Assembly (NCBI GenBank): GCA_017398725.1
Contig: JAFQFA010000002.1
Location: 1 to 64,000, forward strand
DNA from: Oscillospiraceae bacterium
Lineage (GTDB): Bacteria; Bacillota; Clostridia; Oscillospirales; Oscillospiraceae
Direction of reading: 5' to 3'
DNA: 64,000 nucleotides
Shown here: positions 929-18,829 of the stretch, in pieces
How positions within the stretch are numbered: position 1 is the stretch's first letter
Layout of the letters: every line of letters begins with the position of its first letter
Made by a program: the position numbers and the translations under genes
The notes under the pieces: model-generated
Seen by the model: the letters and a program-made list of their open reading frames with translations, nothing else
What the model was told of the DNA's origin: nothing
The model's database searches: none

Positions 929-954
929 AGTGATGTCCTCCTTTTGTAACGAAA

Positions 955-994: not shown

Positions 995-1013
995 CAAAAG
1001 TGGGTCATCATAT

Positions 1014-3646: not shown

Positions 3647-3680
3647 ACACCAGATGTGGCATTTCTGCCCCATCTGGTGT
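3647..3680 (-). repeat. Array hairpin H2
   Basis: Arms ACACCAGATGTGGC and GCCCCATCTGGTGT pair with one mismatch around a six-base loop. It begins six bases after the Spo0A-like stop at 3687 and lies 47 bases before the WYL start. In the sense of the genes its 5' arm contains CACCAGATGGGGC, matching H3-H5. It is followed by TTGTAATATGG, an A/T-rich stretch. Confidence 0.8.
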
Positions 3681-4445: not shown

Positions 4446-4474
4446 ATGTATATCTCCTTTTGAATATTGCATTC

Positions 4475-5230
4475 TCATGGTGTGCGCATAGTGCGCTGAA
4501 TGTTATCCACAATTACAGCAAGAAACTCTGCAACCGAGGGCTTGTCCTCTCGCTTATTGACCGTATACCCAAAGAATTGGACAAGCCCATTTTGCTCTCG
4601 GCGATCCCAAGATATCTCAATTGCGTGCTGAATGGCACGTGCTACCCGAGCAGGGGCGGTTTGGAAGGTTCTGGCAACTTGCGGATACAACACTTTGGTA
4701 AGAGCGTTAATCACATCCGGGTCTTCTACGGCAATCATAATTGCTTCACGCAGGTAGTGGTAGCCTTTTATATGTGCCGGCACACTAATGTCACGGAGGA
4801 TATCTGTAGTCAGTGTTTCTATTTTACATACAGTGGTTTGCTGAGATGCTTTTCTCGGTTCATTACCACACCAATATTCCTCCATAATCTCTGCCAAGGC
4901 ATCTGTATCACAAGGCTTCAGCATTAGATAACGGACACCTAAATTAGCAGAAGCAGACGCTACGTAATCCGTAATAAACCTTGATGTAGCAACCACAACC
5001 GGCCGGTTTTCCATACCGTGGATTTCTTTGAGCACACCAAGGCCATCCTGCTTAGCAAGCAGGAGATCAAGCACCAACATGTCCGGCTTTAGTTGCTTTA
5101 TCATGCGAACAGCTTGTTCGCCATCATTGGCAATTCCTACAACTTCAAGCATATCGTGCTTCTTTAAAGATTGCACAAGCCGATTGCAAAATTCCTCCGA
5201 ATTATCAGCAATTACAATTCTCTTTTTCAT
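4475..5230 (-). CDS. Spo0A-like response regulator, copy 2 (251 aa)
   Basis: The second tandem Spo0A-like protein. Receiver: I-A-D-N-S-E-E-F near the start, M-L-V-L-D55 as phospho-acceptor, M-L-K-P-C lysine. Effector domain: V-P-A-H-I-K-G-Y-H-Y-L-R-E-A-I, recognition helix R-V-A-R-A-I-Q-H-A-I-E-I-S-W-D-R, then F-F-G-Y-T-V-N and K-P-S-V-A-E-F-L-A-V-I. It is clearly a paralogue of the neighbouring copy but diverged throughout, so the duplication is old or both were acquired separately. AAAGGAGA precedes the ATG at 5230; upstream in-frame codons run into hairpin H3 and are not coding. It is the first gene of a two-gene unit. Confidence 0.9.
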   Translation of the reverse strand: MKKRIVIADNSEEFCNRLVQSLKKHDMLEVVGIANDGEQAVRMIKQLKPDMLVLDLLLAKQDGLGVLKEIHGMENRPVVVATSRFITDYVASASANLGVRYLMLKPCDTDALAEIMEEYWCGNEPRKASQQTTVCKIETLTTDILRDISVPAHIKGYHYLREAIMIAVEDPDVINALTKVLYPQVARTFQTAPARVARAIQHAIEISWDRREQNGLVQFFGYTVNKREDKPSVAEFLAVIVDNIQRTMRTP

Positions 5231-5282: not shown

Positions 5283-5320
5283 CACCACCCGACGGGGCAT
5301 TTTCGTCCCATCAGGTGGTG
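5283..5320 (-). repeat. Array hairpin H3
   Basis: Arms CACCACCCGACGGGGC and GTCCCATCAGGTGGTG flank a short loop. Read in the sense of the genes, two of the three arm differences become G-U pairs, suggesting selection on the RNA. It begins three bases after the helicase stop and lies 52 bases before the Spo0A-like start; GTATCTTTATGG follows it. Confidence 0.85.
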
Positions 5321-5323
5321 TTT

Positions 5324-8176
5324 TTATCGGAGTTTTTCTAAAGCTTCAAAGGCTGCATCCATAGCTTCTTCCTGTGTGGGGTAAATCTCTGGGCAGAATA
5401 CATTGTCCAAGGAATACTTCCAAGTATCGTTTTTCTTATTGTGATACAACACTACAAGGTGATCCTTGATCTTTATGTAACTGTTGGAATTCTTAGAGGT
5501 TTTCCATTGCCGGTTCTTAAAGTTTTCCTTCCGGGATTCCTTGCTCTTGAAATCTTGTTCGCGCTTCTTGGCCTGTTCAATGTTGCCCTCCATTTTGCCG
5601 GCGCAAATACAGCCAACGCCCAAACTTCCAAAATTGGGGTGATACATATGGTGTACATAGCGAATAATCTGATGTCCGCACATTTCACACACCCCCACGG
5701 GTTCACCTAAGTCGGTGACACCGGTACAAACCCAGCCGGTTTTCGGCACATCATCCCGTTTCCAGAGATTATCGTAATCTTCCAGGTTCGGCTGTGGTTG
5801 CGGCTCATTCACAGGTTCTTTCTTTTCTGTTGTAGACTGCCTGGACTCCTTGGTTTGCAACTTGAATGCATCTACTTGCTCGTAACCATCCAAAGAATTG
5901 TTGGTTGGTTTTTCTTCCTGCGGTTTTTTCTCAGCCGGTTTGGGTGGTTCTTCTCTGGGTGGCTCTGTCTTTTCCACTATCGGTTGTGGAAACTCCACAG
6001 GTTTCTCAGGAGTAGGAGCCGGTATTTGCGGTAATGTTCGAGGTCTGTTAAAGAAATCAACGGAAATCTCTCGCTCACTTGATAGCTTGTCAAATTTTAC
6101 GCGGTAGCTGTTATTATTTCGACCAAAACCCAAAACCTCGCCTTCACCAAATGCCGGATGTGTCACTCTCGCTCCAGCGGTCTTGGGTGGCGTAACGATC
6201 GGTTCATCATACAGCTGCGCTGCATACCGATCAGCATTGTATTGCAGTTCCTTGGAGATAGTACCCACACGGATATAATTCTCCTCGCCGATTTCTTTTA
6301 GAAAACGAGAGGGGAGCTTTTGTTTGCCGTTCTGGGTATATCCCTCACTGTCCAGCAAGAACAGCCTTTTTTCTGCCCTGGTGATCGCCACATAGCATAG
6401 TCTGCGCTCTTCTTCCAGCCCCATCTTCTTCCGTTCCTCAATGGTCTTGGCAGAGGGGAATATACCTTCTGAAAAGCCTATGATAAACACATAGGGGAAC
6501 TCCAAGCCCTTGGCCGCATGGATGGTCATTAGCTTCACCATATCGCAGGCTTCCTCACCGTCATCCTCCGATTGTAAGGAAATCTGATTGATGAACTCTT
6601 TTAGCGATACTTGTTCTCCAAAGTTATTTTCATATTCCGAAGCGATCCGCTTGAACTCCGACAGGTTTTCAAACCGCTCCATATCGCCCAGCTCCCGGAT
6701 GTATTTTTCATATCCACTGTCTGCGCAGATGTGTTCTACACACTCGGATAGGGGAATGGTTTGATGCAGTTGCCGCACTGTGTTAATAACAGCAACAAAC
6801 TCTTTTGCGCCGCTTCCCTTAAAAGTGGGATCATCCAAATTGTTCTGGAGGGTTTGGAACAAAGATTCCCCGTCTTTTTGCAGTGCCAGCAGTCGCTGCA
6901 GCTTGATCCTGCCGAATTTCCGGCGGGGTTTATTTACGATGCGTTTGAAAGAAATGTCATCGTCAAAAGCCACCAGCCGCAAGTATGCCATAACATCTTG
7001 GATCTCCATGCGCTGATAGAATTTGACACCACCGAATATCTCATAAGGCACACCGTTCTCAGTGAACTTCTTTTCGATGACCCGGGAGAGGAAACCGGAA
7101 CGGTACAGAACCGCAAAATCTGCATAATTACAGCTGGTCTCTTTGCGGATCTGATGGATATTGGCGATGATTCGATCTGCCTCTGCGTACTCGTTCTTTT
7201 CATGGTAATGGTATACCTGCACACCGTCACCGCTTTTAGTAAACAGATCCTTTTTCAGCCGGAACACATTCTTTTCAATTAGTGTGTTGGCACAGCGCAG
7301 AATCTGCGGTGTGGAGCGATAGTTCTGATTCAGAATGACTGTTCGGGTAGGGATATGGGTCTTATCAAAATCCACCAACAGCTTCACATCAGAGCCGCGC
7401 CATTCATAGATATTCTGATCCGGGTCGCCTACGATCATCAAATTCTTATGCTTTTCCGAAAGCCTGTCCACCAGTTCCATTTCTGTGTTGGAACTGTCCT
7501 GAAACTCGTCCACCTGGATATAGTTCAGCCGGTCCTGCCATTTCTCCAAAACCTCCGGACACCGGTTAAAAATATCCAGCACGAAATACAGAAGGTCGTG
7601 GAAATCCATAGCGTAGATCTGCTTCTGTTTTTGCAGGAATTCTTCAATGATTTGATCGTCCATGGACACGATCTCAGGCATGATCTGACAATGATCGGTG
7701 CAGCACATTTTCGCCACATAATCCCGATGCCTCGCTTTGAAGAATGCGATCTGCTTGATGATCTTCTCAAAGCTTGCGTGGTCCAGCTTCAGCTCAAATT
7801 TCTGATAGATATCCCCTAAGATTGCTTTCTGCTGGGCATTGTCGATGATCTGGAACTCTTTAGGATAGAAGATCTTTTCAATATCCTCCCGGAGTACACG
7901 AACACAGAAACCGTGGTATGTACAGATCAAGGAAGTGTCGTATTCCTGACCAATTAGGCTGCGAATACGACGCTTCATTTCTCCGGCGGCTTTATTAGTG
8001 AAAGTTACGCAGAGAATATTGGCAGAATTGATGCCATACTCCTTTACAAGATAGGCATACCTACTCACCAGCAGCTTAGTTTTGCCGCTGCCTGCGCCGG
8101 CAATTACCCGGAGATATCCCTCCGTGGCCGTTACAGCTTCCAGTTGTTTTTCATTTAATGCGGATAAATAATCCAT
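5324..8176 (-). CDS. UvrD/PcrA-type SF1A helicase with Cys/His-rich C-terminal extension
   Basis: An ATP-dependent 3'-5' DNA helicase of 950 residues, about 200 longer than PcrA. Motifs are intact: Q-motif L-N-E-K-Q, Walker A A-G-A-G-S-G-K-T at 26-33, V-D-E-F-Q-D-S at 222-228, G-D-P-D-Q-N-I-Y at 250-257, N-Q-N-Y-R-S-T, T-I-H-A-A-K-G-L-E-F and Y-V-A-I-T-R-A-E-K. A PcrA-like Tudor segment (V-T-H-P-A-F-G-E-G-E-V-L-G) follows, then a Pro/Glu-rich linker, then a distinct module with C-E-M-C-G-H, H-P-N-F and V-G-C-I-C-A, a likely zinc site, ending in a basic then folded tail. The extra module is unusual for PcrA. The gene follows the PolC-like gene by 31 bases in the unit LRR, PolC-like, helicase, which suggests a joint job in DNA metabolism. 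Confidence 0.92.
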   Translation of the reverse strand: MDYLSALNEKQLEAVTATEGYLRVIAGAGSGKTKLLVSRYAYLVKEYGINSANILCVTFTNKAAGEMKRRIRSLIGQEYDTSLICTYHGFCVRVLREDIEKIFYPKEFQIIDNAQQKAILGDIYQKFELKLDHASFEKIIKQIAFFKARHRDYVAKMCCTDHCQIMPEIVSMDDQIIEEFLQKQKQIYAMDFHDLLYFVLDIFNRCPEVLEKWQDRLNYIQVDEFQDSSNTEMELVDRLSEKHKNLMIVGDPDQNIYEWRGSDVKLLVDFDKTHIPTRTVILNQNYRSTPQILRCANTLIEKNVFRLKKDLFTKSGDGVQVYHYHEKNEYAEADRIIANIHQIRKETSCNYADFAVLYRSGFLSRVIEKKFTENGVPYEIFGGVKFYQRMEIQDVMAYLRLVAFDDDISFKRIVNKPRRKFGRIKLQRLLALQKDGESLFQTLQNNLDDPTFKGSGAKEFVAVINTVRQLHQTIPLSECVEHICADSGYEKYIRELGDMERFENLSEFKRIASEYENNFGEQVSLKEFINQISLQSEDDGEEACDMVKLMTIHAAKGLEFPYVFIIGFSEGIFPSAKTIEERKKMGLEEERRLCYVAITRAEKRLFLLDSEGYTQNGKQKLPSRFLKEIGEENYIRVGTISKELQYNADRYAAQLYDEPIVTPPKTAGARVTHPAFGEGEVLGFGRNNNSYRVKFDKLSSEREISVDFFNRPRTLPQIPAPTPEKPVEFPQPIVEKTEPPREEPPKPAEKKPQEEKPTNNSLDGYEQVDAFKLQTKESRQSTTEKKEPVNEPQPQPNLEDYDNLWKRDDVPKTGWVCTGVTDLGEPVGVCEMCGHQIIRYVHHMYHPNFGSLGVGCICAGKMEGNIEQAKKREQDFKSKESRKENFKNRQWKTSKNSNSYIKIKDHLVVLYHNKKNDTWKYSLDNVFCPEIYPTQEEAMDAAFEALEKLR

Positions 8177-8207: not shown

Positions 8208-9635
8208 TTAACTGTCCAATAATTCGGGACTAATTAATGCTTTCAGCATGAAAAACAGATATTCCAGTATTGTTGCTTTCGAAGGTAGTCTGCGACATTT
8301 CTCGCATTGTGTTAATACCCAGTTATCCTCAGATGCACGCATTTCATCGGTAATAACAGGAAAACCCCGACCTTTGCGTACCCAGTTCATCCCTCGAAAC
8401 GCATCTTTATCAACAAAGCCATGGGCCTTTAGATAAAAGAAAATATCTTCCCGACAGGAAATTAACTCAGATAGTTTCAATGTGCCGTCGCGAAGCATTG
8501 CACTATATTTATCCCAAGCGTTATTATCATCTGCTAAACACAAAAGAGCAATCATCTCTCCTACACAATTGGGTGAAGGTATATCTTTGGCTTTCCCAAT
8601 TCGAGTGATATAATTTCGGTTTTCTGCGGTGATGGCTTTTGTATGAAAGTCTTTTGCGATGCGGTTGCGGTTCAGCGTGAATTCAAAAAACAAATTGCCA
8701 CGCTGAATATACTCTGCTTCTGTGGATGCAGTAAAATCCCATATATCGGATTTTAATAGTTTCAACCAGTGGTTATCCAGCCAATGCTCTATCTGCTCAC
8801 GCATATCCTCCGGCAAGCTGAAATCATAAACAGGGTTATTGCCATAGCTGCAATAGCTTTGCCAGACAAGGTTATGGCCGTCAGGAATCATTGCTACATC
8901 GCAACAATTAATTGGTGGGATGTCAAACCCGTCTGTATATGCAGGCTGCCAGATGGTACGGTGGCACTTGGGACAATGAAGATGGGGCGGTAATGGGTTT
9001 ACATTCGTGATTCCCAAAAGGTATGGAATGAGGCCGGAGGTTGCATCTCCGGATATCTTATATGGGTGTTGATTCCTCTTTAGCCAGCTGGTCAGTTCAT
9101 AGACTGCAGCAAGATCCGCGACGTTGCCGCTTTCCAACAAGGCAGTCCATTCCTGCCGCATGCGCTTGAGAATTAAGGAGTCTGGTTTTTCTCCATATTT
9201 GCGATGCAACGCTGAATATATATCTCCCTCGAGACTCTCCTCAATGGCGCGTTTCGGCAGATACGCATATTCGCTGCCGTACATCTGCATGGTATCGTAA
9301 TGGACTTGCGCCCGAGTTAGGATGCTTTTCAGTTCCGTCAACAATTCTAGAAAACTATCGCAACGCACAAATGACGGCAGATCGGGTAGCTCAGCATCCC
9401 CTAGCCATACCACTGTTTCATCCAGCCAATCACCCACATCCATATAGTAGGCGAGCAGCGTGTTTAGAGCATCCTTACGCATCTGTGTTGCATCTACGAT
9501 AACGCAGATAGCATCTGCGACAAGTAAATCTGTCACGCACTCTGCTGTCATCGGTTTATATCCTTCCGTTAATGACGCCTCCAAATGAGATATCTGCCCC
9601 TCTGCTAAGCCATAGGCTGCAATCTTATGGTTCAT
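8208..9635 (-). CDS. Degenerate PolC-like protein (DNA polymerase III alpha palm/fingers relative), probably inactive
   Basis: A 475-residue protein. Residues 1-110 look like a Rossmann/receiver-like alpha-beta domain with no known match. From about 130 it aligns with the genuine PolC encoded at 56620-60942: L-H-R-K-Y-G-E-K-P with L-H-R-L-Y-G-E-N-P, G-I-T-N-V-N-P-L-P-P-H with G-I-T-E-V-N-S-F-P-P-H, then two Cys pairs and P-D-G-H-N. Further on, I-S-C-R-E-D-I-F-F-Y-L matches I-G-C-R-D-D-I-M-I-Y-L and V-R-K-G-R-G-F-P matches V-R-K-G-K-G-L-P. The catalytic P-D-I-D of PolC is P-V-Y-D here, so one metal-binding Asp is lost, and the exonuclease, PHP and OB parts are absent. Polymerase activity is therefore unlikely. 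The ATG at 9635 overlaps the stop of the LRR gene (TAATG) with AAAGGAG upstream, so it is translationally coupled. Confidence 0.8.
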   Translation of the reverse strand: MNHKIAAYGLAEGQISHLEASLTEGYKPMTAECVTDLLVADAICVIVDATQMRKDALNTLLAYYMDVGDWLDETVVWLGDAELPDLPSFVRCDSFLELLTELKSILTRAQVHYDTMQMYGSEYAYLPKRAIEESLEGDIYSALHRKYGEKPDSLILKRMRQEWTALLESGNVADLAAVYELTSWLKRNQHPYKISGDATSGLIPYLLGITNVNPLPPHLHCPKCHRTIWQPAYTDGFDIPPINCCDVAMIPDGHNLVWQSYCSYGNNPVYDFSLPEDMREQIEHWLDNHWLKLLKSDIWDFTASTEAEYIQRGNLFFEFTLNRNRIAKDFHTKAITAENRNYITRIGKAKDIPSPNCVGEMIALLCLADDNNAWDKYSAMLRDGTLKLSELISCREDIFFYLKAHGFVDKDAFRGMNWVRKGRGFPVITDEMRASEDNWVLTQCEKCRRLPSKATILEYLFFMLKALISPELLDS

Positions 9636-10951
9636 TAATCTTTCTCCTTTACGTCCGTATAATTGACACAATGATAGGGAATATTATTTTCTATGGCATA
9701 GTGTTCAGCACAAGACCCAGCGTTGCAATGAATTACTAGATTCGGACACTGCAAAAAGGACTCCCTGTGAATTTTAACTACGCTATTTGGGATAAAGAGT
9801 TCCTTCAGATCGGGGCAATCCGCAAAAGCTCCTGTGTCGATTTCTTTTGTTCCGTTAGGGACTGCCGTGCCATTACAGCCTACCCACAACACATCGCTAT
9901 ACACAATCGCATTGATTGCAAAACCATCCCGGGTATAACCAGGCGTGTCATGAATAGCAATTTTACGTAAATTGGGACAAGCGCCAAAGGGATTGCCTTC
10001 CGGTATTACATCCTGAGGAAGAATAATCTCAGTTAAACTTATGCAGCCCCGAAAGGCATCCTTTGATAAATACAAGTCGTGCGTCTGCTGAGCTTCAAAA
10101 CAAACTGTCTGAAGGCGTGTGCATTCAGAAAATGCATCTTCACAAACATCCCATATGCTGGGAGGCAGAAGCAATATTTCGATTCCGCAGCATCCGGAAA
10201 ACGCCCTCTTATCAATTGTCTGCACAGTGTCAGGGAATACGATCTTTCTTATTTCCTTATGCCCGGAAAAAGCCTCCGATCCAATCCGATCAACACCTTC
10301 CGGAATGTTCACAGTTTCCTCGCATCCGTTATATTTCAATAATACAAATTCATCTCCATAACAGGTTGTTTCGAATATTGGATGAACCATACCCTCCAGT
10401 TTGGCGCACAAAATTGATCGATCACTAATGATTTCCTGTTTTCCGTATAACCCTTCCAAGACACAGAATTCGTGCAGCTGTGCATTATTCTCACAAGCAA
10501 ACAATCCAGTATATACTTCGTTAGGAATACGATAAACTGAGGAAAGCATTGCACACCAATCTATTGTCCCTTTAAAATATGCCAGAGCATCTTCTTTATC
10601 CAAAAATCTGTTGTACACAAGATACAAAATAGGCAAATTAATTTGAATAAAAGTCGTTATCTGATTTATGAACTTATCATCATACACATTGGGGCAGTTA
10701 TTTTCATTCATCCACATAGCCGGAACAATCTTACAGTCTCCGTAAATATTGAAGCACATAACTGGAGCATTATCCAATCGACCGGAAAAAGGCGATCCTC
10801 CGTGAAATCGAATCGATGGTCCATCACAGCTGTCAACCCAATTGCCAAAGGCTATGTATTCCTGGAAATATCCGGTGCGGGACATATTTGCGTCACTTGC
10901 ATGTAGCACACACAAGGTATTTGCATCTGTTTGTTTTTCAAGTCGTTTCAT
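9635..10951 (-). CDS. BspA-type leucine-rich-repeat protein (LRR_5), 438 aa
   Basis: The C-terminal two thirds contains repeated LRR_5 units such as I-P-E-G-V-D-R-I-G-S-E-A-F-S-G, then F-P-D-T-V-Q-T-I-D-K-R-A-F-S-G-C, then L-P-P-S-I-W-D-V-C-E-D-A-F, ending with I-D-T-G-A-F-A-D-C-P and F-I-P-N-S-V-V-K-I. The first 220 residues are a non-repetitive domain of unknown type. No signal peptide is seen, so it probably works inside the cell as a binding scaffold, unlike secreted BspA. The ATG at 10951 has AAGGAGG upstream; codons before it lie in hairpin H4. It opens the three-gene unit with the PolC-like and helicase genes, so its partner is plausibly one of them or the nucleic acid they act on. Confidence 0.85.
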   Translation of the reverse strand: MKRLEKQTDANTLCVLHASDANMSRTGYFQEYIAFGNWVDSCDGPSIRFHGGSPFSGRLDNAPVMCFNIYGDCKIVPAMWMNENNCPNVYDDKFINQITTFIQINLPILYLVYNRFLDKEDALAYFKGTIDWCAMLSSVYRIPNEVYTGLFACENNAQLHEFCVLEGLYGKQEIISDRSILCAKLEGMVHPIFETTCYGDEFVLLKYNGCEETVNIPEGVDRIGSEAFSGHKEIRKIVFPDTVQTIDKRAFSGCCGIEILLLPPSIWDVCEDAFSECTRLQTVCFEAQQTHDLYLSKDAFRGCISLTEIILPQDVIPEGNPFGACPNLRKIAIHDTPGYTRDGFAINAIVYSDVLWVGCNGTAVPNGTKEIDTGAFADCPDLKELFIPNSVVKIHRESFLQCPNLVIHCNAGSCAEHYAIENNIPYHCVNYTDVKEKD

Positions 10952-10980
10952 AGATTCGCCTCCTTCTGCTATAAGTATAA

Positions 10981-11016
10981 CCCACCGGGCGGGGCAAAAA
11001 CGCCCCATCCGGTGGG
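10981..11016 (-). repeat. Array hairpin H4
   Basis: Arms CCCACCGGGCGGGGC and GCCCCATCCGGTGGG around a short A-rich loop. It starts six bases after the macro-domain stop and 29 bases before the LRR start. In gene sense the 5' arm is CCCACCGGATGGGGCG, identical with H5, and the downstream TTATACTTATAG resembles TTATTTTTATAG after H5. Confidence 0.88.
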
Positions 11017-11022
11017 TCTTTC

Positions 11023-11589
11023 CTATAAGCAGATTTCATGTTCCTCTACATAGTCCCAGTCCAGCTTCTTTGGCGGGTTATGAATTTGTTCATATGCCTT
11101 CCACATCATTTCCGCAATTAGTTTTGGATGCACCTCACCGCAACCACCGCCAAACAAGGGAATTAAAATGCTATCCACATTGTTCTCGTACGCACACATC
11201 AGTGTTGTACGCATGCATTGATAGATAACCAGCGGATCTTTGATTGGTTGTGGTGTTCGCATAGTCGGGGTGTGGATCAGATTGCGTCCCTCTTTGCCCG
11301 TGTCAATCATAAAACTCGATCCAACGGGCTGTTCTCCATAATAGTGTTCAATAATATGCTGCTGAACCCGTTTTTGCAGCTGATCTCCAAAGTAATTGGT
11401 AATGGCAAGATCATATCCGCCATCCATTAACCCAAAGGCATTGGCAGGGGAAACAATGCACTGCACTGGATTTGACCTTATAAATTCATCAAATTCTGCA
11501 GCTACGCACTCGACATTCGATTCTCCATGAAAGTATAGCTTTACATAGCGCAGCTGTACTTCACCTTTGTTGATGATGTATATTTTCAT
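11023..11589 (-). CDS. Macro-domain protein (ADP-ribose binding/hydrolase family), 188 aa
   Basis: The macro-domain loop is clear: C-I-V-S-P-A-N-A-F-G-L-M-D-G-G-Y-D-L-A-I, and the second ligand loop I-P-L-F-G-G-G-C-G-E-V follows near residue 145. Members bind ADP-ribose or remove it from proteins or DNA. The S-P-A-N-x-F-G-x-M-D-G-G version is common in phages and mobile elements. The start ATG at 11589 overlaps the TGA of the DnaB-like gene (ATGA), so the two are translationally coupled. It could reverse ADP-ribosylation of a target or sense such nucleotides; no partner ADP-ribosyltransferase is visible nearby. Confidence 0.88.
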   Translation of the reverse strand: MKIYIINKGEVQLRYVKLYFHGESNVECVAAEFDEFIRSNPVQCIVSPANAFGLMDGGYDLAITNYFGDQLQKRVQQHIIEHYYGEQPVGSSFMIDTGKEGRNLIHTPTMRTPQPIKDPLVIYQCMRTTLMCAYENNVDSILIPLFGGGCGEVHPKLIAEMMWKAYEQIHNPPKKLDWDYVEEHEICL

Positions 11590-12410
11590 TCTACTACCTC
11601 CTCGTCAGAAAAGGTTGCTTTTTCCGGATCCCACCGTAATTTGACTGTGCCGCAATCTCCATGTCTGTTTTTCGCCACAATACATTCAGCTATATCGCCC
11701 AGCGGCGTTTCCGGGTTATAATAGCGATCTCGGTACAGTAGCAGAATCTGATCAGCATCCTGCTGCAAAGCACCATAATCATTTAAATCCTTAAAAACAG
11801 GTCGTTTATCTTCGCGATAGTCTACCTGCCGACCCAACTGCGCCGTACAAATAACCGGCACACTTAATTCCCGTGCTAGAAGTTTTAGGTCCCGCGACTT
11901 AGAATTATAAGCCCGGCTAAATCGGTCTTTACTATTTGTGTGATATGCCGGATCGTCAAGTAAATTAAAATAGTCAATGATTATAGCGCCGAGGTTTTCA
12001 ACTCTCTTACAAATATCATGAATCTTCTTCACCGTCATCCACGGATCATCACAGATTACAAGGTTGCCTTCTTTTTTGTGTCAGTTTCCGCTTGCCCTTT
12101 GTGAGCGGCGGATAATCTGTACTTCGGACATTTCTAAAGAAAAAAGCACAGTCGTTTTGGATGCTTCTTTTGCTAGGTTATTGGCAATGTCTAACGCTAA
12201 TGCCGTTTTACCCATTGCCGGACGGCTTGCAATAACAACCAGGTCTTCATCCACTAACCCAGTTGTTAACTTGTCGATAGCCAGGAGCCCTGTAGACTGT
12301 CTTGGCTTTTGCGCATCTTCGAGTGCTATTTGCGCAAGCTTCTCAAGCACTAGGTTCATTGTTTCGGGAATATCGCCATTTCTTTTGCTGTACACATAGT
12401 TATTTGCCAT
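11586..12410 (-). pseudogene. DnaB-like helicase C-terminal domain with in-frame TGA and internal deletion
   Basis: A DnaB-family gene reduced to the RecA-like domain. Codons 1-109 give a linker helix, D-K-L-T-T-G-L and Walker A A-S-R-P-A-M-G-K-T-A (61-70), then F-S-L-E-M-S. A TGA at 12081-12083 interrupts it; reading resumes in the same frame with I-C-D-D-P-W-M-T-V, Walker B G-A-I-I-I-D-Y, D-Y-G-A-L-Q-Q-D-A-D and I-V-A-K-N-R-H-G. Between S-L-E-M-S and D-D-P about 20 residues usual in DnaB are missing. The N-terminal domain is absent. No good ribosome site precedes the second part. Most likely it is a broken gene, though the second half remains well preserved and is coupled to the macro gene, so readthrough or use as two pieces is possible. 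Confidence 0.85.
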
Positions 12411-12449
12411 TGTGACACCCTTCCTAATTTGTTTCCACTATAAAAATAA

Positions 12450-12485
12450 CCTACCGGACGGGACAAATTCGCCCCATCCGGTGGG
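12450..12485 (-). repeat. Array hairpin H5
   Basis: Arms CCTACCGGACGGGAC and GCCCCATCCGGTGGG, six-base loop. In gene sense two of three differences are G-U wobbles. It begins seven bases after the GyrA-like stop and 40 bases before the DnaB-like start; TTATTTTTATAG follows, which could serve as the T tract of a terminator. Confidence 0.88.
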
Positions 12486-12492
12486 TTTCGTA

Positions 12493-13683
12493 TTATACTA
12501 GATCAATGATTTCCGTTCTTCTGGGTTTTCCGTGTTTTTTCTTGATTGCGAGCAGTTCTTGGCACATTTCTTCATTTGTTGGTGCTACGCCATTTTTCTT
12601 TTGAAGGAAATCTCGATAGAATGCCAAATGCTCCGAAAGAATGTTGTACAGCGACATCCTTGCAGGCTTATTGTCGGAGAGCAAAATCGCCTGATAATCA
12701 ATAACGTCTTCAAGCCCAGTCTTGAGATAAAGCAAATCCAGCACTTTTGACACATCTGCGTCAGCTGTTAGTTCAATCCAAAACTCAACCTCCGGGAACC
12801 AATGCTTTGAGTAAACTCCAACGACACCCGGCAGTTCTCGGTCACGGACTAGCTCATCAACAAGAGTCCCAAATGCATCAATATCTCGATCCATTGTGAC
12901 CGGAACTTCCCAAATGGCCAATATTGGTCTTTCTTTTCCAAAAGATCGAATTAAGCTCGATTTGCATCGGACCCGGATTTGTCCGCGCCCTGTGCGATAC
13001 ATTTCCGGTAATTCACTTTTATTTACGATCACACCGCCGGTTATAAAATCAGGACCCTTTACGTAGTCCAAGACCCTCTCCGGTGCTAAGTCAGGATCAT
13101 TGATCATTGCTATCATTGCGTCAATTACTTCTCCCAAATTGTGTGGGGGAATTTGACTGTAGAATCCATCGGCAATCACGTCTGTGCCCAGCACGATAGA
13201 ACCGGGGATGCGCTCAGGCAACACAAGTGGCACTTTACCGCAGGCAATACCGGTATCCTCCTTAAAGTCTACCATTCTTTTGCTTATATACTTAAGCATT
13301 GCGTCCTCTGCAAATGTATGCAATCTTATTTCAGTAAAGCGAGGGGATGTAGGATTGCCTCCGTGCTGTCCCCAATTGCCCCGCGGTGCATCTACTAAAG
13401 GAATTGTATTAAAATGCTCAGTCATTAAAGCAATCGTGTTGTTAATTGTATCCGCTTCTCCAAATCCCCAATGGTCACTCATTGTTCCAACTTGACCACC
13501 GGCATCATAGAGCGTCTTTGCAGTCATTTCATATTCAGACCTGCTGGACAACTTTCGTTGCCGCATGGTCCAAAGAATTCTGCGTTGTCTAGGCGTTAAA
13601 CCATCCCGCGCATCAGGAAGGTTATAGCTCTCAAAGGTTTCCTTGCCTTCGGTTTCTACTTTCATTTTCAATGCATCTGCCAT
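12493..13683 (-). CDS. GyrA/ParC-like protein with Tyr-to-Phe at the catalytic site
   Basis: 396 residues matching the breakage-reunion half of type IIA topoisomerase A subunits: L-P-D-A-R-D-G-L-T-P-R-Q-R-R-I-L near the start, I-P-P-H-N-L-G-E-V-I-D-A at about 180, G-P-D-F-I-T-G-G and T-G-R-G-Q-I-R-V-R further on. The active-site segment R-Y-T-E-x-R is R-F-T-E-I-R here (Phe116), so the DNA-linking tyrosine is missing. The quinolone-region helix G-x-Y-H-P-H-G-D is also rewritten to S-D-H-W-G-F-G-E. The C-terminal beta-pinwheel and the coiled-coil end are absent. It may still bind DNA or a topoisomerase partner but should not cut DNA. The start at 13683 has only a weak site (GAGAGTGGA). It is the first gene of the minus array and forms its own unit between H6 and H5. 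Confidence 0.88.
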   Translation of the reverse strand: MADALKMKVETEGKETFESYNLPDARDGLTPRQRRILWTMRQRKLSSRSEYEMTAKTLYDAGGQVGTMSDHWGFGEADTINNTIALMTEHFNTIPLVDAPRGNWGQHGGNPTSPRFTEIRLHTFAEDAMLKYISKRMVDFKEDTGIACGKVPLVLPERIPGSIVLGTDVIADGFYSQIPPHNLGEVIDAMIAMINDPDLAPERVLDYVKGPDFITGGVIVNKSELPEMYRTGRGQIRVRCKSSLIRSFGKERPILAIWEVPVTMDRDIDAFGTLVDELVRDRELPGVVGVYSKHWFPEVEFWIELTADADVSKVLDLLYLKTGLEDVIDYQAILLSDNKPARMSLYNILSEHLAFYRDFLQKKNGVAPTNEEMCQELLAIKKKHGKPRRTEIIDLV

Positions 13684-13742: not shown

Positions 13743-13762
13743 ATGGGGCAAAATCGCCCCAT
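13743..13762 (-). repeat. Array hairpin H6 (short form)
   Basis: ATGGGGC and GCCCCAT pair around AAAATC, 60 bases before the GyrA-like start. It shares the ATGGGGC core and the position in the 5' leader with H2-H5 but lacks the outer CACC/GGTG part. In gene sense TATTATATTTTC follows. No minus-strand gene precedes it, so termination cannot be its only role. Confidence 0.7.
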
Positions 13763-13871: not shown

Positions 13872-14759
13872 ATGGAATATATATCTGTCGCAAAAATGGC
13901 TGTAAAATGGGGACTTTCTGAACGAAGTGTGCGGAATTACTGTGCCCACGGCAGAATTGCCGATGCCAAGCTTATCGGCAAAACTTGGTACATTCCAGAG
14001 AATGCACAAAAGCCGGATCGTATCAACAAAAAGAAAGATACCCCTTCCTTGCTGCAGATCCTGCGGGAGCAGAAAGCGGCAAAAATGACTGGAGGTATCT
14101 ATCATAAGGTGCAGATCGATCTGACCTATAACTCCAACCACATTGAGGGTAGCCGTCTTACTCACGATCAGACGCGGTATATCTTTGAGACCAATACCAT
14201 CGGTTTTGAAAATGAGTCTGTGAATGTGGACGATGTGATTGAAACATCAAACCACTTCCGTTGCATTGATATGGTGATCGATCAGGCTGGTAATGCACTT
14301 ACTGAGAGATTCATCAAGGAACTGCATTTCGTACTGAAAACCGGCACCAGCGATAGCCGCAAGGCTTGGTTCGCGGTAGGGGAGTACAAGAAGTTACCCA
14401 ACGAGGTGGGCGGTAATGATACTACTCTGCCGGAGAATGTTGCCGAGGCGATTCGTAAACTGCTGGCAGAGTATAATGCATTGCTCTCTAAGACCTTTGA
14501 GGACATCGTAGCCTTCCATGTGGCATTTGAACGCATTCATCCCTTCCAGGACGGAAATGGCCGCGTAGGCCGCCTGATCCTCTTTAAGGAGTGCCTGAAG
14601 CACAATATCGTCCCGTTTATCATTGAGGATAACTTGAAGCTGTTTTACTACCGCGGTCTCAAAGAATGGGATCACGAAAAAGGCTTCCTCATAGACACCT
14701 GCCTCACCGCCCAAGACCGCTTTAAGGCTTATTTGGATTACTTTAGAATTGTATATTAA
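13872..14759 (+). CDS. HTH-Fic domain protein (AMP-transferase family, class II)
   Basis: 295 residues. An N-terminal MerR/excisionase-like helix-turn-helix (I-S-V-A-K-M-A-V-K-W-G-L-S-E-R-S-V-R-N-Y) precedes a Fic domain with the complete motif H-P-F-Q-D-G-N-G-R-V-G-R at about 223-234. Residues 88-93, S-N-H-I-E-G, form the inhibitory helix motif (S/T)xxxE(G/N) upstream of the Fic core, which marks class II self-inhibited enzymes. Fic proteins usually transfer AMP from ATP to Ser, Thr or Tyr of a target. The start at 13872 is chosen for GGGAGGG six bases upstream. It opens the plus-strand defence region and diverges from the GyrA-like gene. It needs no separate antitoxin; the target is unknown. 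Confidence 0.9.
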   Translation: MEYISVAKMAVKWGLSERSVRNYCAHGRIADAKLIGKTWYIPENAQKPDRINKKKDTPSLLQILREQKAAKMTGGIYHKVQIDLTYNSNHIEGSRLTHDQTRYIFETNTIGFENESVNVDDVIETSNHFRCIDMVIDQAGNALTERFIKELHFVLKTGTSDSRKAWFAVGEYKKLPNEVGGNDTTLPENVAEAIRKLLAEYNALLSKTFEDIVAFHVAFERIHPFQDGNGRVGRLILFKECLKHNIVPFIIEDNLKLFYYRGLKEWDHEKGFLIDTCLTAQDRFKAYLDYFRIVY

Positions 14760-14868
14760 TCTCAATATAAATATAGCCAAAAGGAAACTCTAAAAAATTG
14801 TCACATTAATAAGGCTTAATACTAATAACTTTTTGAATGATGTTCAATACAGGAATATGGAGGACATT

Positions 14869-16839
14869 ATGTTATTGACTAAAATTGCAATCAAAAACTT
14901 TCGCCTATTGGTTAATGCAGAATTGAATGTTGATGAAGATATTACACTGATTGTCGGTCGGAACAACACAGCAAAAACATCTTGCATGGATATGCTAGGG
15001 AAGGTTATCAAGGGGAAACCGCTAACATATGATGATTTTCCTTTAAGTAAGCGAAAGTATGCATATTTCTTGCTTGAGCATTTTATTAAGGGTACGATTA
15101 CCTATGAACGCCTTTGTAAAAAATTTCCCCAAGCTGCCATTGAGTTCTGGGTGGACTATTCTTTGGATGATCCTGATGCGAATCTGGGTGCACTTTCTCC
15201 GTTTATCATTGATGTGGATGTTGATACCACACAAGCTGTTATTCGTGCAGAGTACAAACTTAAAATGGAAGAAAATACATTGCGTGAATTGTTTGCACCG
15301 TGCTTCTTTGAAAACGGCGTATTCGTAAAGCGACTTGAAGATGTGCGCGACATATGTATAGCAAACTTCCCAAAAATGTTCGACTTAACCATTTATGCAA
15401 TTAACCCTAAAAATACTGCAGATGTTCAAGTTAAGACGCAAAAAGAACTCTCAGATCTTTTCCCTTTTTACCCAATCCATGCAGAACGGTTTTTGGGTGA
15501 GGCCGCAGAAGATAATCAGAGCTCACTAGGGTCATTGATTACCAGCTATTTTAGCGTTGACCTTGATAATCTTGATCCGCAAATTGCAAATGATGTGAAA
15601 GTGTTGCGAGAAACGGTTGAGAAAGCAAATATTGCAATTCAAAGAAAGAGTAGCGAACTACTTAGTTCCATTGTTGATCGGTCTGTCGGCTTTGGTTATC
15701 CTAATAGCGAGGAGCTAAAACTTGGTGTCAACACGAAATTACAGATCGATAATCAAATCAAGGATCAGACGGAGCTTACTTATACTTCAAAAGTTGCAGG
15801 AGAATCTCTTCCAAGTTCTCATAACGGATTAGGATATAAGAATTTGATTAAAATTGAGTTCCAGCTTGCAGCGTTTGCAGGAAAGATTAAGCAAGGAAGC
15901 ACGGCGTGCATCCCATTGCTATTTATAGAAGAACCAGAGTCGCATATGCATCCGCAAATGCAACACACATTTGCCAGTTATTTGAGAACTTTCTTGGGAG
16001 AAATATCCGATGTTCATATTCAGTCGTTTCTCACATCACACTCCGCACATATTGCAAATACAATTGACTTCTCAAAAATAAGATATGCACAAAAAACAAG
16101 GCGGGGTGTTGTGTATAAGGACCTAAATATCTTTTCGCAGATCCAAACAGTAAATTTGGAGTTCATTCAAAAGTATCTTACACTCAGCCGGTGTGATATG
16201 TTTTTCGCGGATAAGATCATTTTTGTGGAAGGCGCCTCCGAAAGGCTCCTTTTGCCTGATATGATTGAAAAATGTGCCAATGCGGGACTATTCGATTCAC
16301 AAGAATATAAACTACCTGCTCAATATTATGCTTTGATTGAAATTGGCGGAGCGTATGCGTATAAGTTTATTCCTTTTATAGAATTCTTGGGAATACCGTG
16401 CCTTATACTAACTGATATTGATGCTATGGAAGATGGACGGACAAAGGCTGCTGTCAGCAAGGGTAAGGTTACATCTAACTCTACGTTAAAGTGGTGGATG
16501 CGCAAACATAAGAATTTGCCAGAGGACGACCCTTCTACAATTAATCTTTCCGAGATTATAGCGTTAACAGCTGAGGAGAAGACACGCGGGACTTGTCACG
16601 TGGAGTTCCAAACCAGTGAATATGGCCTGTGTGGGCGTTCTTTGGAAGAGTCAATTATGAATGTAAATCGAGCTCATTACGAATTGGCGGAGCCGGTCAC
16701 AGAGGACAAGTTGTCATTTAAGGATAAAAGCAAGACTGATTTTGCACTTAATCTTATCACGAAAAAGCCAGATTATGCGATTCCAAACTATATTAAGAAT
16801 GGTTTGGTTTGGCTTAATGATCAGCAGGTATTGATATAG
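14869..16839 (+). CDS. gajA: GajA-like OLD-family ATPase-TOPRIM nuclease (Gabija)
   Basis: 656 residues. The N-terminal ABC-type ATPase starts L-T-K-I-A-I-K-N-F-R with Walker A G-R-N-N-T-A-K-T-S at about 31-39, where the usual Gly before Lys is Ala. Walker B and the D-loop are in F-I-E-E-P-E-S-H-M-H-P-Q-M-Q. The C-terminal TOPRIM domain has I-F-V-E-G-A-S-E-R at about 450 and L-T-D-I-D-A-M-E-D at about 513, the metal-binding residues. In the Gabija antiphage system GajA nicks DNA and is held in check by nucleotides until phage replication depletes them. The ATG at 14869 has GGAGGA upstream; an ATG at 14857 is the alternative. The partner helicase begins 14 bases downstream. Family call is firm; antiphage activity is inferred from the pair. 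Confidence 0.9.
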   Translation: MLLTKIAIKNFRLLVNAELNVDEDITLIVGRNNTAKTSCMDMLGKVIKGKPLTYDDFPLSKRKYAYFLLEHFIKGTITYERLCKKFPQAAIEFWVDYSLDDPDANLGALSPFIIDVDVDTTQAVIRAEYKLKMEENTLRELFAPCFFENGVFVKRLEDVRDICIANFPKMFDLTIYAINPKNTADVQVKTQKELSDLFPFYPIHAERFLGEAAEDNQSSLGSLITSYFSVDLDNLDPQIANDVKVLRETVEKANIAIQRKSSELLSSIVDRSVGFGYPNSEELKLGVNTKLQIDNQIKDQTELTYTSKVAGESLPSSHNGLGYKNLIKIEFQLAAFAGKIKQGSTACIPLLFIEEPESHMHPQMQHTFASYLRTFLGEISDVHIQSFLTSHSAHIANTIDFSKIRYAQKTRRGVVYKDLNIFSQIQTVNLEFIQKYLTLSRCDMFFADKIIFVEGASERLLLPDMIEKCANAGLFDSQEYKLPAQYYALIEIGGAYAYKFIPFIEFLGIPCLILTDIDAMEDGRTKAAVSKGKVTSNSTLKWWMRKHKNLPEDDPSTINLSEIIALTAEEKTRGTCHVEFQTSEYGLCGRSLEESIMNVNRAHYELAEPVTEDKLSFKDKSKTDFALNLITKKPDYAIPNYIKNGLVWLNDQQVLI

Positions 16840-16852
16840 AGGAGGTGACTTT

Positions 16853-18589
16853 ATGAGCGGAGAAAACGAGAAGAATAACTACCAAATTGCAAAAGAAGAG
16901 GCTGATAAGGTTGACGAATTGATTATCTCTACCCTCCAACAAGGTCGCAGCTTTCGAGTAGAAGCAGGTGCGGGATCGGGCAAAACGTACTCACTTAACA
17001 GGGTTATTGAATGGGTACAAGCTAATAAGTGGAACGAATACAAGAGAAAGAATCAAAATGTGATATGTATCACTTATACCAACGCGGCGGTGGATGTAAT
17101 CGCAGAACGGCTTACAAACAATTCCTTTATTTTGCCGTCGACAATTCACTCATTTGCTTGGGGCGCAATAAAACAGTATCAAAGCACCCTAATGGATATG
17201 ATTGCAAAGGACGAAAAGTTGTGGGCAAAAGAATCTGATTTCTCAGGTATAACTTCTATCCAGTACGATAGAGGCTACCGATATGTCAGCAAGGGAACAC
17301 ATTACCTGTTTCATGATGATGTAATTAAACTCTTTGCTGCAATGCTGGACAATGCAAAATTTAGGCGTGTATTCAGCGATAAATACCCTTTAATCCTTAT
17401 TGATGAATATCAAGATTCCTTCCAATCGATTATCGATCGCTTTATCGAACATTTTATTTCTAAGGGAACAGGACCTCAGTTTGGCTTTTTCGGTGATGCG
17501 TGGCAGACAATCTATCAGTCTAATAATGCTTGTGGGTTGATTGATCATGATAACCTGGTTGTGATCCCTAAAGGATCAAATTTTAGGTCTGCGCCTAGAA
17601 TTGTAGAGTTGCTTAATAATATTCGTCCGGAACTGCCACAACAGTCCGCTGTAGATGAATTTGAAGGCGAAGTTGTTGTAGTTACATGTGAAGATTACAC
17701 AGGTGAGCGACGGACCGATCGAAATTTCAAAGAAGATTTACCGGCAGATGAACTAAGAATGCGAATAAATGCTATATCCGCTCACATAAAAGCATCTGTT
17801 CCTGAAGAAGAGACAATTAAAACTCTGATGATTACCCATAAGGTTCTTGCAGCACAACAAGGGTATGAAAAACTTTTAGATATTCTACAAGATGGTCTTC
17901 GGGACAAAGATGATCCTTTTCTGCTGTTCTTTATGGAGACTGTGGAACCTGTATATAAGGCGCTTCAAACTTCTGATATGCAATTGCTCTTCGATACATT
18001 AAAGAAACGATACCCCATTACCAAAAAAACTGAGAAACTCTGCTGGAAAGCATTGGAGCAGGATCTGGCAGAAGTCCGAGAAAAGCGAGCGGCAGATGTT
18101 CTTAAGACAGTAATTGAATCTAACCTAATACCAATTCCACCGCAAGTCGAAGGGTATTATCAACTGTATTGTACAACGCCTGAATTGATCTACCCTAATG
18201 GCGTGCCAATTCAGGAGTTCTTAGAATTGGAGTATGCTCAATTTTTGGCGGCAATTGATTTTCTGTATCCTGAAGCGGAGTTCTCTACAGAACACGGTGT
18301 AAAAGGAGAAGAATACGATAATATTATCTTTGTTATAAGCAAAGGTTGGAATCAATATCAGTTTGAAACCTACGCGCCTATGATTAATGGCTCTGTACCT
18401 ATTCCGAGAGGCAAGGAAGCTTCATTCGAACGGAATCGCAACCTGTTCTATGTATGCTGCTCTAGACCGAAGAAGAGATTAATATTCTTCGTTTCTGTGC
18501 CGATGACTGCCGCTTTTCGCGGTTTTCTAAGTGATCTTGTTGGTGAAGAAAATATCTTAACCTATGGTGAATACTTAGGCGGTATGTAA
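16853..18589 (+). CDS. gajB: GajB-like UvrD-family helicase/NTPase (Gabija)
   Basis: 578 residues of SF1A helicase type: Walker A A-G-A-G-S-G-K-T at 38-45, motif Ia I-T-Y-T-N-A-A-V-D-V-I, Walker B L-I-D-E-Y-Q-D-S at about 182, G-D-A-W-Q-T-I-Y-Q as motif III, N-F-R-S-A-P as motif IV, and F-Y-V-C-C-S-R-P-K-K-R as motif VI. It directly follows the OLD-type gene with GAGGAGGTGA before its ATG. This order and spacing are those of Gabija, in which GajB joins a GajA tetramer and hydrolyses nucleotides or DNA ends as part of the abortive response. It is shorter than the PcrA-like helicase at 5324-8176 and not closely alike. Confidence 0.9.
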   Translation: MSGENEKNNYQIAKEEADKVDELIISTLQQGRSFRVEAGAGSGKTYSLNRVIEWVQANKWNEYKRKNQNVICITYTNAAVDVIAERLTNNSFILPSTIHSFAWGAIKQYQSTLMDMIAKDEKLWAKESDFSGITSIQYDRGYRYVSKGTHYLFHDDVIKLFAAMLDNAKFRRVFSDKYPLILIDEYQDSFQSIIDRFIEHFISKGTGPQFGFFGDAWQTIYQSNNACGLIDHDNLVVIPKGSNFRSAPRIVELLNNIRPELPQQSAVDEFEGEVVVVTCEDYTGERRTDRNFKEDLPADELRMRINAISAHIKASVPEEETIKTLMITHKVLAAQQGYEKLLDILQDGLRDKDDPFLLFFMETVEPVYKALQTSDMQLLFDTLKKRYPITKKTEKLCWKALEQDLAEVREKRAADVLKTVIESNLIPIPPQVEGYYQLYCTTPELIYPNGVPIQEFLELEYAQFLAAIDFLYPEAEFSTEHGVKGEEYDNIIFVISKGWNQYQFETYAPMINGSVPIPRGKEASFERNRNLFYVCCSRPKKRLIFFVSVPMTAAFRGFLSDLVGEENILTYGEYLGGM

Positions 18590-18651: not shown

Positions 18652-18829
18652 GAAAAACACCCGGCGGTGGGACCGATTTGGTCTTCCCGTCGGGTGACTG
18701 TTTACGGTAGGAGTATGTGCCGTATCACAGGCGGCCAACTTGCTGTTCTCTGCGCCATTTAAATTATGAAAAGGTGTAGAGGCCTGTGCGCTTTAGAAAT
18801 ATTAGAAAACATGGTGGTTATCAAACTAT
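18652..18829 (+). repeat. Left direct repeat (DR-A) flanking the DUF2971-NACHT module
   Basis: It starts with a large hairpin at 18658-18696: CACCCGGCGGTGGGACC, loop GATTT, GGTCTTCCCGTCGGGTG, whose differences are mainly G-U pairs in plus-strand RNA. It continues with GACTGTTTACGGTAGGAGTAT, then TTCTCTGCGCCATTT and GCGCTTTAGAAATATT. The same blocks in the same order occur at 23268-23473. Identity is partial, with insertions, so the copies are old or under separate selection. Confidence 0.8.

Follow-up and report, generated by a model that had tools for sequence, protein, structure and literature searches.

We identified a mobile, modular, and recurring gene array of gut bacteria in which derivatives of the replication proteins PolC, GyrA, and DnaB (and of DnaA in a sister array) are under purifying selection after losing catalytic motifs or entire parts. 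The array lies on the minus strand at 2.6–13.7 kb of the window, the 64,000-nucleotide stretch of Oscillospiraceae contig JAFQFA010000002.1 that was analyzed, and combines the three derivatives with a UvrD/PcrA-type helicase, two Spo0A-like regulators, a macro-domain protein, and a WYL-domain regulator, with a near-identical palindromic hairpin between units and a Fic gene divergent from the rest. A first-pass annotation had reported relatives of PolC, GyrA/ParC, and DnaB at 8208–13683, interleaved with macro and leucine-rich repeat (LRR) genes, and all of these are present (Pfam matches; PVYD in PolC, Tyr to Phe in GyrA, TGA in DnaB). The UvrD-type helicase that it placed among them is indeed uninterrupted but lies just outside that interval, and the copies it called shortened are also pruned internally, in an array larger than it had described.

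The array head carries the divergent gene for an HTH and Fic protein (HPFQDGNGRVGR; 13872–14759, plus strand; Pfam Fic, 6.4e-16), with counterparts in the corresponding position in G256 (94% identity) and G230 (89% over 70 aa, where the contig end cuts the gene) and a dN/dS of 0.042. The gap between this gene and the GyrA derivative holds the core palindrome ATGGGGC-N6-GCCCCAT (13743–13762, no strand assigned), with the outer arms unformed. The GyrA derivative follows (12493–13683, minus strand; 396 aa; Pfam DNA_topoisoIV, 5e-56) and reads SPRFTEIR, with Phe at the position of the catalytic Tyr in all 3 copies from 2 genera, where the aligned solved gyrase has Tyr. It resembles subunit A of gyrase and topoisomerase IV over about residues 21–364 of the N-terminal part and stops close to the expected start of the exit-gate part; unlike a functional subunit A, it lacks the catalytic Tyr, the C-terminal domain, and apparently the exit gate, whose loss we infer from the protein length and the alignment break. 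Its tail is similar to the last part of the GyrA N-terminal construct, although this second match is weak (1.1 bits), and its NCBIfam score of 214 bits is far below the cut-off of 902 for GyrA. No GyrB partner was seen among the array genes.

Downstream of an array hairpin (12452–12483, minus strand), the DnaB derivative consists of the C-terminal domain split by a TGA over 2 open reading frames, piece 1 at 12081–12410 with the TGA at its end (DnaB_C, 8e-20) and piece 2 at 11586–12038 (DnaB_C, 1.4e-39), both on the minus strand. The profile match begins at position 153, and 26 codon positions, TGA included, face the 53 profile positions 243–295, about half the length, so that neither the N-terminal domain nor the full RecA domain of a DnaB replicative helicase is present. 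The G230 ortholog has 274 aa and is uninterrupted, and the G230 array also has a DnaB-like domain fused to the PolC derivative. In the G256 array, the PolC derivative adjoins a protein that consists of the DnaA ATPase domain and little else; by eye, the Walker A motif is retained in both the DnaB-like (piece 1 in the window) and the DnaA-like pieces. The macro-domain gene overlaps the end of the DnaB derivative (11023–11589, minus strand; Pfam Macro, 4.8e-14) and is 94% identical to the G230 copy, with a dN/dS of 0.064.

The next hairpin (10983–11014, minus strand) precedes a unit of 3 minus-strand genes, comprising a BspA-type LRR protein (9635–10951, with the reading frame open to 11008; Pfam LRR_5, 3.3e-28) whose end touches the start of the PolC derivative, the PolC derivative itself (8208–9635), and the UvrD/PcrA-type helicase, which has a long C-terminal tail (5324–8176; Pfam UvrD-helicase, 4.4e-70) and shares 95% identity with its counterpart in G230 (dN/dS 0.036). 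The PolC derivative joins an N-terminal domain of its own (about residues 1–130) to a dead PolC fragment that reads PVYD at the PDID of PolC. It aligns with the housekeeping PolC of the window (56620–60942, uninterrupted, with PDIDLNF) at residues 823–970 and 1192–1279, whereas PolC residues 971–1191, with the LKLD motif at 1089, have no counterpart, which means that the derivative is pruned internally and not merely shortened; about 180–220 residues of the catalytic core are without a counterpart in the window copy. The 2 segments, homologous to the outer 2 core segments of PolC, also align with the solved PolC 3f2b (profile E 1.7e-51).

We take the aspartates of PDID and LKLD to be the catalytic residues of PolC. 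PDID and KLD are absent from all 11 short PolC copies, which thus lack the motifs of an active polymerase: the first Asp is lost in 11 of 11, the second is kept in 4 (window, G598, G779, and G820), and the third motif is absent throughout. These copies are deeply diverged from housekeeping PolC. A short PolC frame in G616 carries a TAA. An HTH joined to the dead fragment was found in 4 genomes of other families, plus 1 case at a contig edge, with the HTH of the G598 protein assigned by PHROGs; to judge from these joinings outside the family, the dead PolC fragment is an older module. The HTH-joined proteins sit in ordinary-looking chromosomal surroundings, which we count against our preferred reading below. 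The N-terminal domain of the array protein gave no convincing match among solved structures and recurs on 202-aa proteins of G155 and G039, whose tail is HTH-like by eye; a fusion of this domain to an exonuclease in G155 and G039, suspected by eye, was dropped when the profile gave no match at E 1. A phage or plasmid origin of the PolC derivative was also rejected, with no phage match and 2 plasmid records (1 annotated as PolC, 1 unannotated). The first PolC tree comprised 35 of 36 candidates, omitting L015 (G169) since its frame lacks PDIDLNF; a later tree included it, the fragment G610 is in neither, and both trees may be affected by long-branch attraction.

Beyond a further hairpin (5286–5317) lie the 2 Spo0A-like regulators (4475–5230, with receiver and Spo0A_C domains, and 3687–4478), then a hairpin immediately before the putative WYL promoter (3648–3679) and the WYL regulator (2560–3600), in which both the WYL domain and the WCX extension of WYL/BrxR-type regulators were found (Pfam WYL, 4.8e-12; WCX, 6.8e-6; dN/dS 0.07–0.08), all on the minus strand. 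The WYL regulator, which has relatives in other arrays, and the Spo0A-like regulators are each present in 7 of 8 array loci. A 212-aa protein frequently found next to the WYL gene (1014–1652, minus strand) had no Pfam match at E 0.01; a motif resemblance to the uracil-DNA-glycosylase fold found no support in solved structures. A terminal hairpin (954–995, minus strand) is matched by a 91% identical stretch where the G230 array ends.

In its own genome (66% complete) the hairpin is confined to the array, with 4 sites in 1.41 Mb against 0 for a control pattern. A search of genome contigs gave 7 hairpin stretches, 5 of them within 4 related arrays; single hairpin-like sites in G285 and G295 were judged to be chance. 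With 1 mismatch allowed, the core pattern and its reversed control occur at about equal frequency in array genomes (10 versus 10 in G000), so only exact, array-bound palindrome matches carry weight. The distance from hairpin to start codon follows the downstream gene, at 41–42 nt for the PolC and DnaB derivatives (n = 5), 47 nt for WYL (n = 4), and 52–58 nt for Spo0A-like genes (n = 4), and in 4 arrays a promoter-like TTGTAA-N17-TACACT (by eye) starts at the hairpin end before WYL. From the position of the palindrome and from weakly similar sequence upstream of WYL genes outside the arrays, we predict that the WYL regulator uses the core as its operator, and the outer arms may form a hairpin serving the preceding unit. 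A plain terminator is possible: a terminator scan gave 22 terminator-like sites versus 12.0 (sd 3.4) in shuffles. It recovered the full stem of the hairpin at 12482, but only a 5-pair part of those at 10993 and 5299. Rfam at gathering scores (window, L039, and L061) returned a cobalamin riboswitch only and no family for the hairpin.

Related hairpin-bearing arrays were identified in 5 more genomes of the genus, 1 genome of another genus, and 1 contig of a viral collection, with a patchy distribution and differing surroundings. The viral collection gave no relative when scanned with the hairpin or with 2 short peptide patterns each for the GyrA derivative and WYL, and 1 relative when scanned with the PolC derivative. 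Gene content varies, G052 having the GyrA derivative and WYL, and G240 a Spo0A-like gene, WYL, and the 212-aa gene, which we also count against the preferred reading. Other arrays end beside YchF-like, Hfq-like, or recombinase genes (by eye), a further point against that reading; the window array adjoins known defence genes, its neighbors being a Gabija-type pair, Fic, and a SMEK-STAND gene. Among the array proteins queried with PADLOC, UvrD matched helicase components and Fic the candidate family PDC-S04 (8.9e-112), with no match for the GyrA derivative, macro, LRR, or the PolC derivative.

All computable dN/dS values fall within 0.036–0.30, with orthologs in several species (0.12–0.13 for the GyrA derivative, 0.11–0.13 for the PolC derivative, and 0.18–0.19 for its HTH-joined relatives). 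The recurring set, the conserved dead positions, and these values together indicate that the non-catalytic versions are kept by selection. The first-pass annotation had asked whether the same set exists elsewhere, and its recurrence with the same dead positions is more than chance. Diversifying selection on the GyrA derivative was rejected, because its divergent middle also has high synonymous divergence (pS 0.6–0.9); set against the young stretches, namely its last 43 codons and the DnaB derivative and macro gene (pS 0.16–0.33), this looks like mosaic exchange and not an arms-race signature.

Our preferred reading, held tentatively and at somewhat less than even confidence, is a WYL-controlled modular regulon whose pruned replication proteins would attach to partners or DNA, perform no catalysis, and thereby either interfere with replication or shield it; the likeliest use appears to be interference with replication in invaders or in the cell itself. 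The WYL regulator would sense DNA damage, single strands, or an invader and allow expression of the units; the pruned proteins would occupy, without turnover, the partners or DNA structures that the real proteins engage, and, once bound, would arrest or shield replication of invader or cell, while Fic may act on topoisomerases within the same programme. A more specific form is possible but somewhat less probable, namely an inducible dominant-negative or decoy set for immunity or arrest, built from repeatedly captured PolC, DnaB, DnaA, and GyrA with catalytic parts pruned and placed under one WYL-type switch with repeated operators.

The first-pass annotation had suggested decoys or sponges for phage proteins. 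Its interpretation is partly supported, in that non-catalytic versions are kept by selection. Pure decoys or guards, keeping the surfaces hit by phage anti-replication proteins to soak up or signal attack, would fit homologous segments conserved despite lost motifs, the patchy distribution, and the adjoining defence genes. However, the synonymous divergence of the GyrA middle removes an arms-race signal, Walker A is retained in the DnaB- and DnaA-like proteins, UvrD and the Spo0A-like regulators look active by eye, and a dead PolC fragment that elsewhere is fused to an HTH and here carries a distinct N-terminal domain suits a regulator or sensor; we regard pure decoys as unlikely, and the interference with replisomes that the annotation also proposed fits at least as well. 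Equally unlikely in our judgment is a stress or development regulon outside defence, in which the dead PolC fragment would read the replication state (primer ends, nucleotides, or replisome partners) for attached domains, DNA-binding or other. The HTH-joined fragments of other families, the N-terminal domain on the G155 and G039 proteins, and the prevalence of Spo0A-like genes point to it, but by itself it leaves the GyrA and DnaB derivatives, macro, and Fic unexplained, and the array PolC derivative has no recognized HTH.

Less likely again is a mobile-element toolkit slowing host replication or sporulation for the element's own maintenance: integrase- or recombinase-like genes (by eye) lie near the G259, G315, G240, and G145 arrays and on the viral contig, surroundings differ, and dS is unequal along one array, yet within the arrays we noticed neither a replication-origin gene nor a transfer gene, and the recombinases differ among loci and may be later insertions. 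Still more doubtful are hairpins acting as attC-like recombination sites with the genes as incidental cargo. Hairpins do stand at unit borders, 2 blocks of homology that the window shares with G230 stop at them (10977 and 3680), and a 169-aa gene is inverted between 2 hairpins in 2 arrays; against this, hairpin-to-start distance is gene-specific, a hairpin leads into the WYL promoter, recombinases differ among loci, and the replication theme would be a coincidence. Integron cassette arrays likewise share border hairpins and variable content but not a spacing that follows the downstream gene. The 2 interruptions seen, the TGA of the DnaB derivative in the window and an interrupted UvrD in G259, indicate that parts of the array are dispensable and would suit decaying duplicates of housekeeping genes, a reading the annotation had tied to missing co-occurrence, neutral dN/dS, and frequent stops; the low dN/dS, orthologs across several species, and deep divergence from housekeeping PolC make it very improbable.

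Known systems resemble the array in part. WYL (BrxR/CapW)-regulated defence islands share the WYL regulator, inverted repeats before genes, and, for the window array, adjacent defence genes, and BrxR is a WYL repressor that binds inverted repeats ahead of defence genes (PMC9122601); in contrast, the array carries pruned replication proteins and not a known defence system, and its palindrome recurs ahead of many units. Fic proteins that AMPylate GyrB/ParE share the Fic motif, and the array-head gene stands beside a GyrA derivative in 2 of 3 cases; its tie to gyrase is by analogy (PMC7479194 and PMC13327609). The short PolC copies differ from C-family PolC in their N-terminal domains and lost motifs, and the C-family section of a recent bacterial polymerase census (PMC12926913) covers PolC, DnaE1, DnaE2, DnaE3, and proofreading domains that are inactive, without mention of a catalytically dead PolC. 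Among the open-licence papers listed in literature searches, no title or abstract beginning described anything resembling the array.

An array that does interfere with replication would amount to a new principle, whether of immunity or of cell-cycle arrest, and its dead fragments of PolC, GyrA, and DnaB would then reveal which replisome surfaces matter. Even if the array is merely regulatory, a polymerase turned regulator domain would be unexpected and directly testable.

Arrays of pruned replication genes recur: their catalytic motifs are consistently lost, they are under purifying selection, and they share a near-identical palindrome between their units (the array hairpin). In the window, the minus strand carries, from 13683 to 2560, GyrA*, a hairpin, DnaB* and an overlapping macro gene, a hairpin, touching LRR and PolC* genes followed by UvrD, a hairpin, two Spo0A-like genes, a hairpin, and a WYL regulator, the asterisks denoting internally pruned copies of GyrA/ParC, DnaB, and PolC. 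Small genes and then a 212-aa protein (1014-1652) come after the WYL regulator, and the final hairpin lies at 954-995. Five array genes fall inside the interval 8208..13683, delimited in the first-pass annotation as a replication-protein island, but UvrD lies outside it. The 212-aa protein adjoins WYL genes in several genera and has conserved LILGESHH and HPS motifs, with no match in Pfam or PHROGs. A Fic protein (13872-14759), divergent from the array, is followed by a Gabija-type pair (14833-18589; PADLOC GajA, 1.5e-200, and GajB, 4.4e-199), a DUF2971 protein, and a SMEK-STAND-pentapeptide gene. G+C is 0.34-0.47 over 0-24 kb of the window vs. 0.47-0.55 further on; the genome measures 1.41 Mb at 66% completeness, and the window opens its contig C1. 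The DUF2971 and SMEK-STAND genes are flanked by another hairpin, unlike that of the array (18658-18696 and 23275-23313; an 80-nt repeat with 83% identity). In G256, a genome of the same genus, resembling sites (C14:154146, 155536) are 6-8 kb away from the first array hairpin; the four genomes searched contained no others at ≤3 mismatches.

All three alterations described in the first-pass annotation were confirmed. Alignment with the window's own housekeeping PolC (56620-60942) identified PVYD in place of PDID in PolC*, with the second Asp kept; the window PolC* covers residues 823-970 and 1192-1279 of the housekeeping protein. As the latter has PDID at residue 966 and LKLD at 1089, nothing in PolC* corresponds to the third catalytic region. 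A profile of five PolC* copies matched solved PolC (3f2b) at 412-575 and 754-872 (E 1.7e-51). In GyrA*, the Tyr of GyrA/ParC is Phe, and 46 distinct solved gyrase or topo IV sequences matched at E ≤1e-10, the best to about residue 364; a weak further match (1.1 bits) places the tail against the last part of the solved construct. DnaB* lacks the N-terminal domain and is split by a TGA into two pieces, and one inner stretch is about half the length of its counterpart in the profile; by eye, it retains the linker, Walker A (SRPAMGKT), and Walker B (IIIDYFNLL). The catalytic residues of PolC and GyrA and the roles of the missing parts are as we presume them to be.

The hairpin probe (≤2 mismatches) identified 24 forward sites in 8 of 136 genus genomes, vs. 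5 sites in 4 genomes for the reversed control, and six of the eight were arrays (the window, G230, G256, G259, G315, and G240). The single sites in G285, which also had a control site, and G295 were judged to be chance. An exact degenerate hairpin search of genome_contigs returned 7 stretches, five in four of the known arrays and two in Sphaerisporangium. GyrA* occurs in 2 of 101 genus genomes, that of the window and G230. The G230 array encodes GyrA* (64% identity, same Phe), an uninterrupted 274-aa DnaB*, macro (94%), an AAA ATPase, PolC* fused to a DnaB-like domain, UvrD (95%), Spo0A-like genes, and WYL. Its 268-aa protein (L039 11720-12526) resembles, by eye, a pair of Spo0A C-terminal domains lacking a receiver. 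Two arrays contain a 169-aa gene of unknown family in inverted orientation, with a hairpin on either side (L039 10158-10667, L061 15633-16142). Across 8 loci with array hairpins, we counted WYL in 7, Spo0A-like genes in 7, PolC* in 5 (that of G315 being 6.6 kb from its WYL), GyrA* in 3, UvrD in 3 (one interrupted), macro in 3 (one of a different sort), Fic in 3 (one cut by a contig end), DnaB* in 2, and DnaA-like in 1. A contig from a viral collection (L108) carries hairpin, PolC*, hairpin, and a Spo0A-like gene, adjoining a recombinase-like gene. Of 300 family genomes, the WYL profile at E 1e-70 matched that of the window and eight more: G052, of another genus, has GyrA*, a hairpin (3 mismatches), and WYL, G145 a dead PolC relative, the 212-aa gene, and WYL without a hairpin, and G197 the 212-aa gene and WYL, with no replication-derived array gene seen in the stretches fetched from the remaining five. 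A lack of co-occurrence elsewhere had been named in the first-pass annotation as one sign of decaying duplicates. Related arrays do recur, but the complete set is rare: macro occurs in 2 of 136 genus genomes, and UvrD (E 1e-220) in a single one of 400 family genomes, that of the window, G230 not being among those listed.

The loss of catalysis in PolC copies is of long standing. Among 394 genomes of other families of the order, at least 4 (G598, G779, G607, and G820) encoded a 472-473-aa protein with an N-terminal HTH and a PolC fragment (HTH-PolC*), and a fifth among the matches listed, G610, had the start of one at a contig edge. The HTH was supported by PHROGs in G598, and we take it to be XRE-type in these proteins. 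In G598 (L093 10000-11418), the gene lies just upstream of a same-strand run, by eye with a pyrH-like gene first and housekeeping polC last. The array PolC* N-domain also occurs on 202-aa proteins in mobile-looking clusters (L023 9083-9691, L024 8007-8615), next to a metallo-beta-lactamase-like gene and a serine recombinase (by eye). PDID and KLD were absent, with no internal stop, in all 11 short PolC copies examined; the first Asp was lost in 11 and the second kept in 4. Nine short copies formed one clade within PolC in a first tree (UFboot 91). In a larger tree with more rows, the short copies and the dead 733-aa frame of G169 formed a clade with a support of only 56, G315 and G169 paired at 100, and the whole group joined the 810-aa L091 at 99, which suggests that shortening may have had more than one origin within an accessory PolC line; grouping in these trees could be exaggerated by long-branch attraction. 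By eye, the open frames of the accessory relatives L015 (G169; 733 aa) and L091 (G876; 810 aa) resemble PHP-containing PolC; catalytic positions are altered in the former, and PDID is kept in the latter.

Neutral dN/dS had been named, together with frequent stops, as a further sign of decaying duplicates; the computed pairs (Nei-Gojobori) spanned 0.036-0.30 and were not neutral, the PolC* window/G230 pair being incomputable (pS 0.76). For GyrA*, the window/G230 pair gave 0.13, at a dS of 2.0 that is close to saturation, and the G230/G052 pair 0.12. Other values were 0.11 and 0.13 for PolC*, 0.19 and 0.18 for HTH-PolC*, 0.30 and 0.18 for the DnaB* pieces, 0.064 for macro, 0.036 for UvrD, 0.042 for Fic, 0.09 for Spo0A-like, 0.07-0.08 for WYL, 0.17 for the 212-aa protein, and 0.22 for a 253-aa protein. 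The arrays are mosaics, since dS between window and G230 ranges from 0.18 to 2.0 and homology blocks stop at hairpins (10977, 3680), slightly beyond one (5240), or within GyrA*.

The 24 hairpin copies (20 distinct) align gap-free, with 13-bp arms and a 6-base loop, and six folded copies gave -23.7 to -36.4 kcal/mol (z -3.7 to -7.5). Pairing held in 90.4% of cells vs. 87.3 in shuffles, and the covariation score was 0.147 vs. 0.090 (0/500 as high; 0.017-0.062 when slid). Covariation is concentrated in one position, as pair 5-28 is the only one in which both bases vary (CG, GC, AU, UG), with no excess of such pairs (1 vs. 1.4 in shuffles) or of further pair types (8 vs. 7.9). Hairpin-to-start distance tracks the downstream gene, at 41-42 nt for PolC*/DnaB*, 47 for WYL, 52-58 for Spo0A-like, 31 for LRR, and 53 for AAA. 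Before WYL genes of four arrays, a promoter-like TTGTAA-N17-TACACT directly abuts the hairpin, the last hexamer varying in the other three (by eye). The heads of some arrays have lost the left outer arm and retain the core, ATGGGGC-N6-GCCCCAT, and exact core matches are all inside the array in G000, G230, G256, G259, and G315. On our reading, the core is a putative operator and the outer arms form a hairpin that serves the preceding unit and could be a terminator. By eye, a promoter of this kind follows a CCCAT half-site at the non-array WYL genes in G145, G019, and G360, and a full core at 1 mismatch lies upstream of that in G066; such sites are only suggestive as operators because 1-mismatch cores are common in the background (16 forward vs. 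control 13 in G066; 10 in all vs. control 10 in G000).

In the open-licence literature, as far as its accessible text extends, we found no published description of such an array. BrxR, a WYL protein that represses a defence island, binds inverted repeats (PMC9122601). In the array, the WYL protein would be the switch. The pruned proteins would bind without turnover; we infer this for dominant-negative, decoy, and sensor forms alike, which would differ in their targets. Gyrase or topo IV is AMPylated by known Fic proteins (PMC7479194, PMC13327609); by analogy, the presence of Fic and macro in one locus hints at protein modification. The Spo0A-like genes could link the array to arrest or sporulation.
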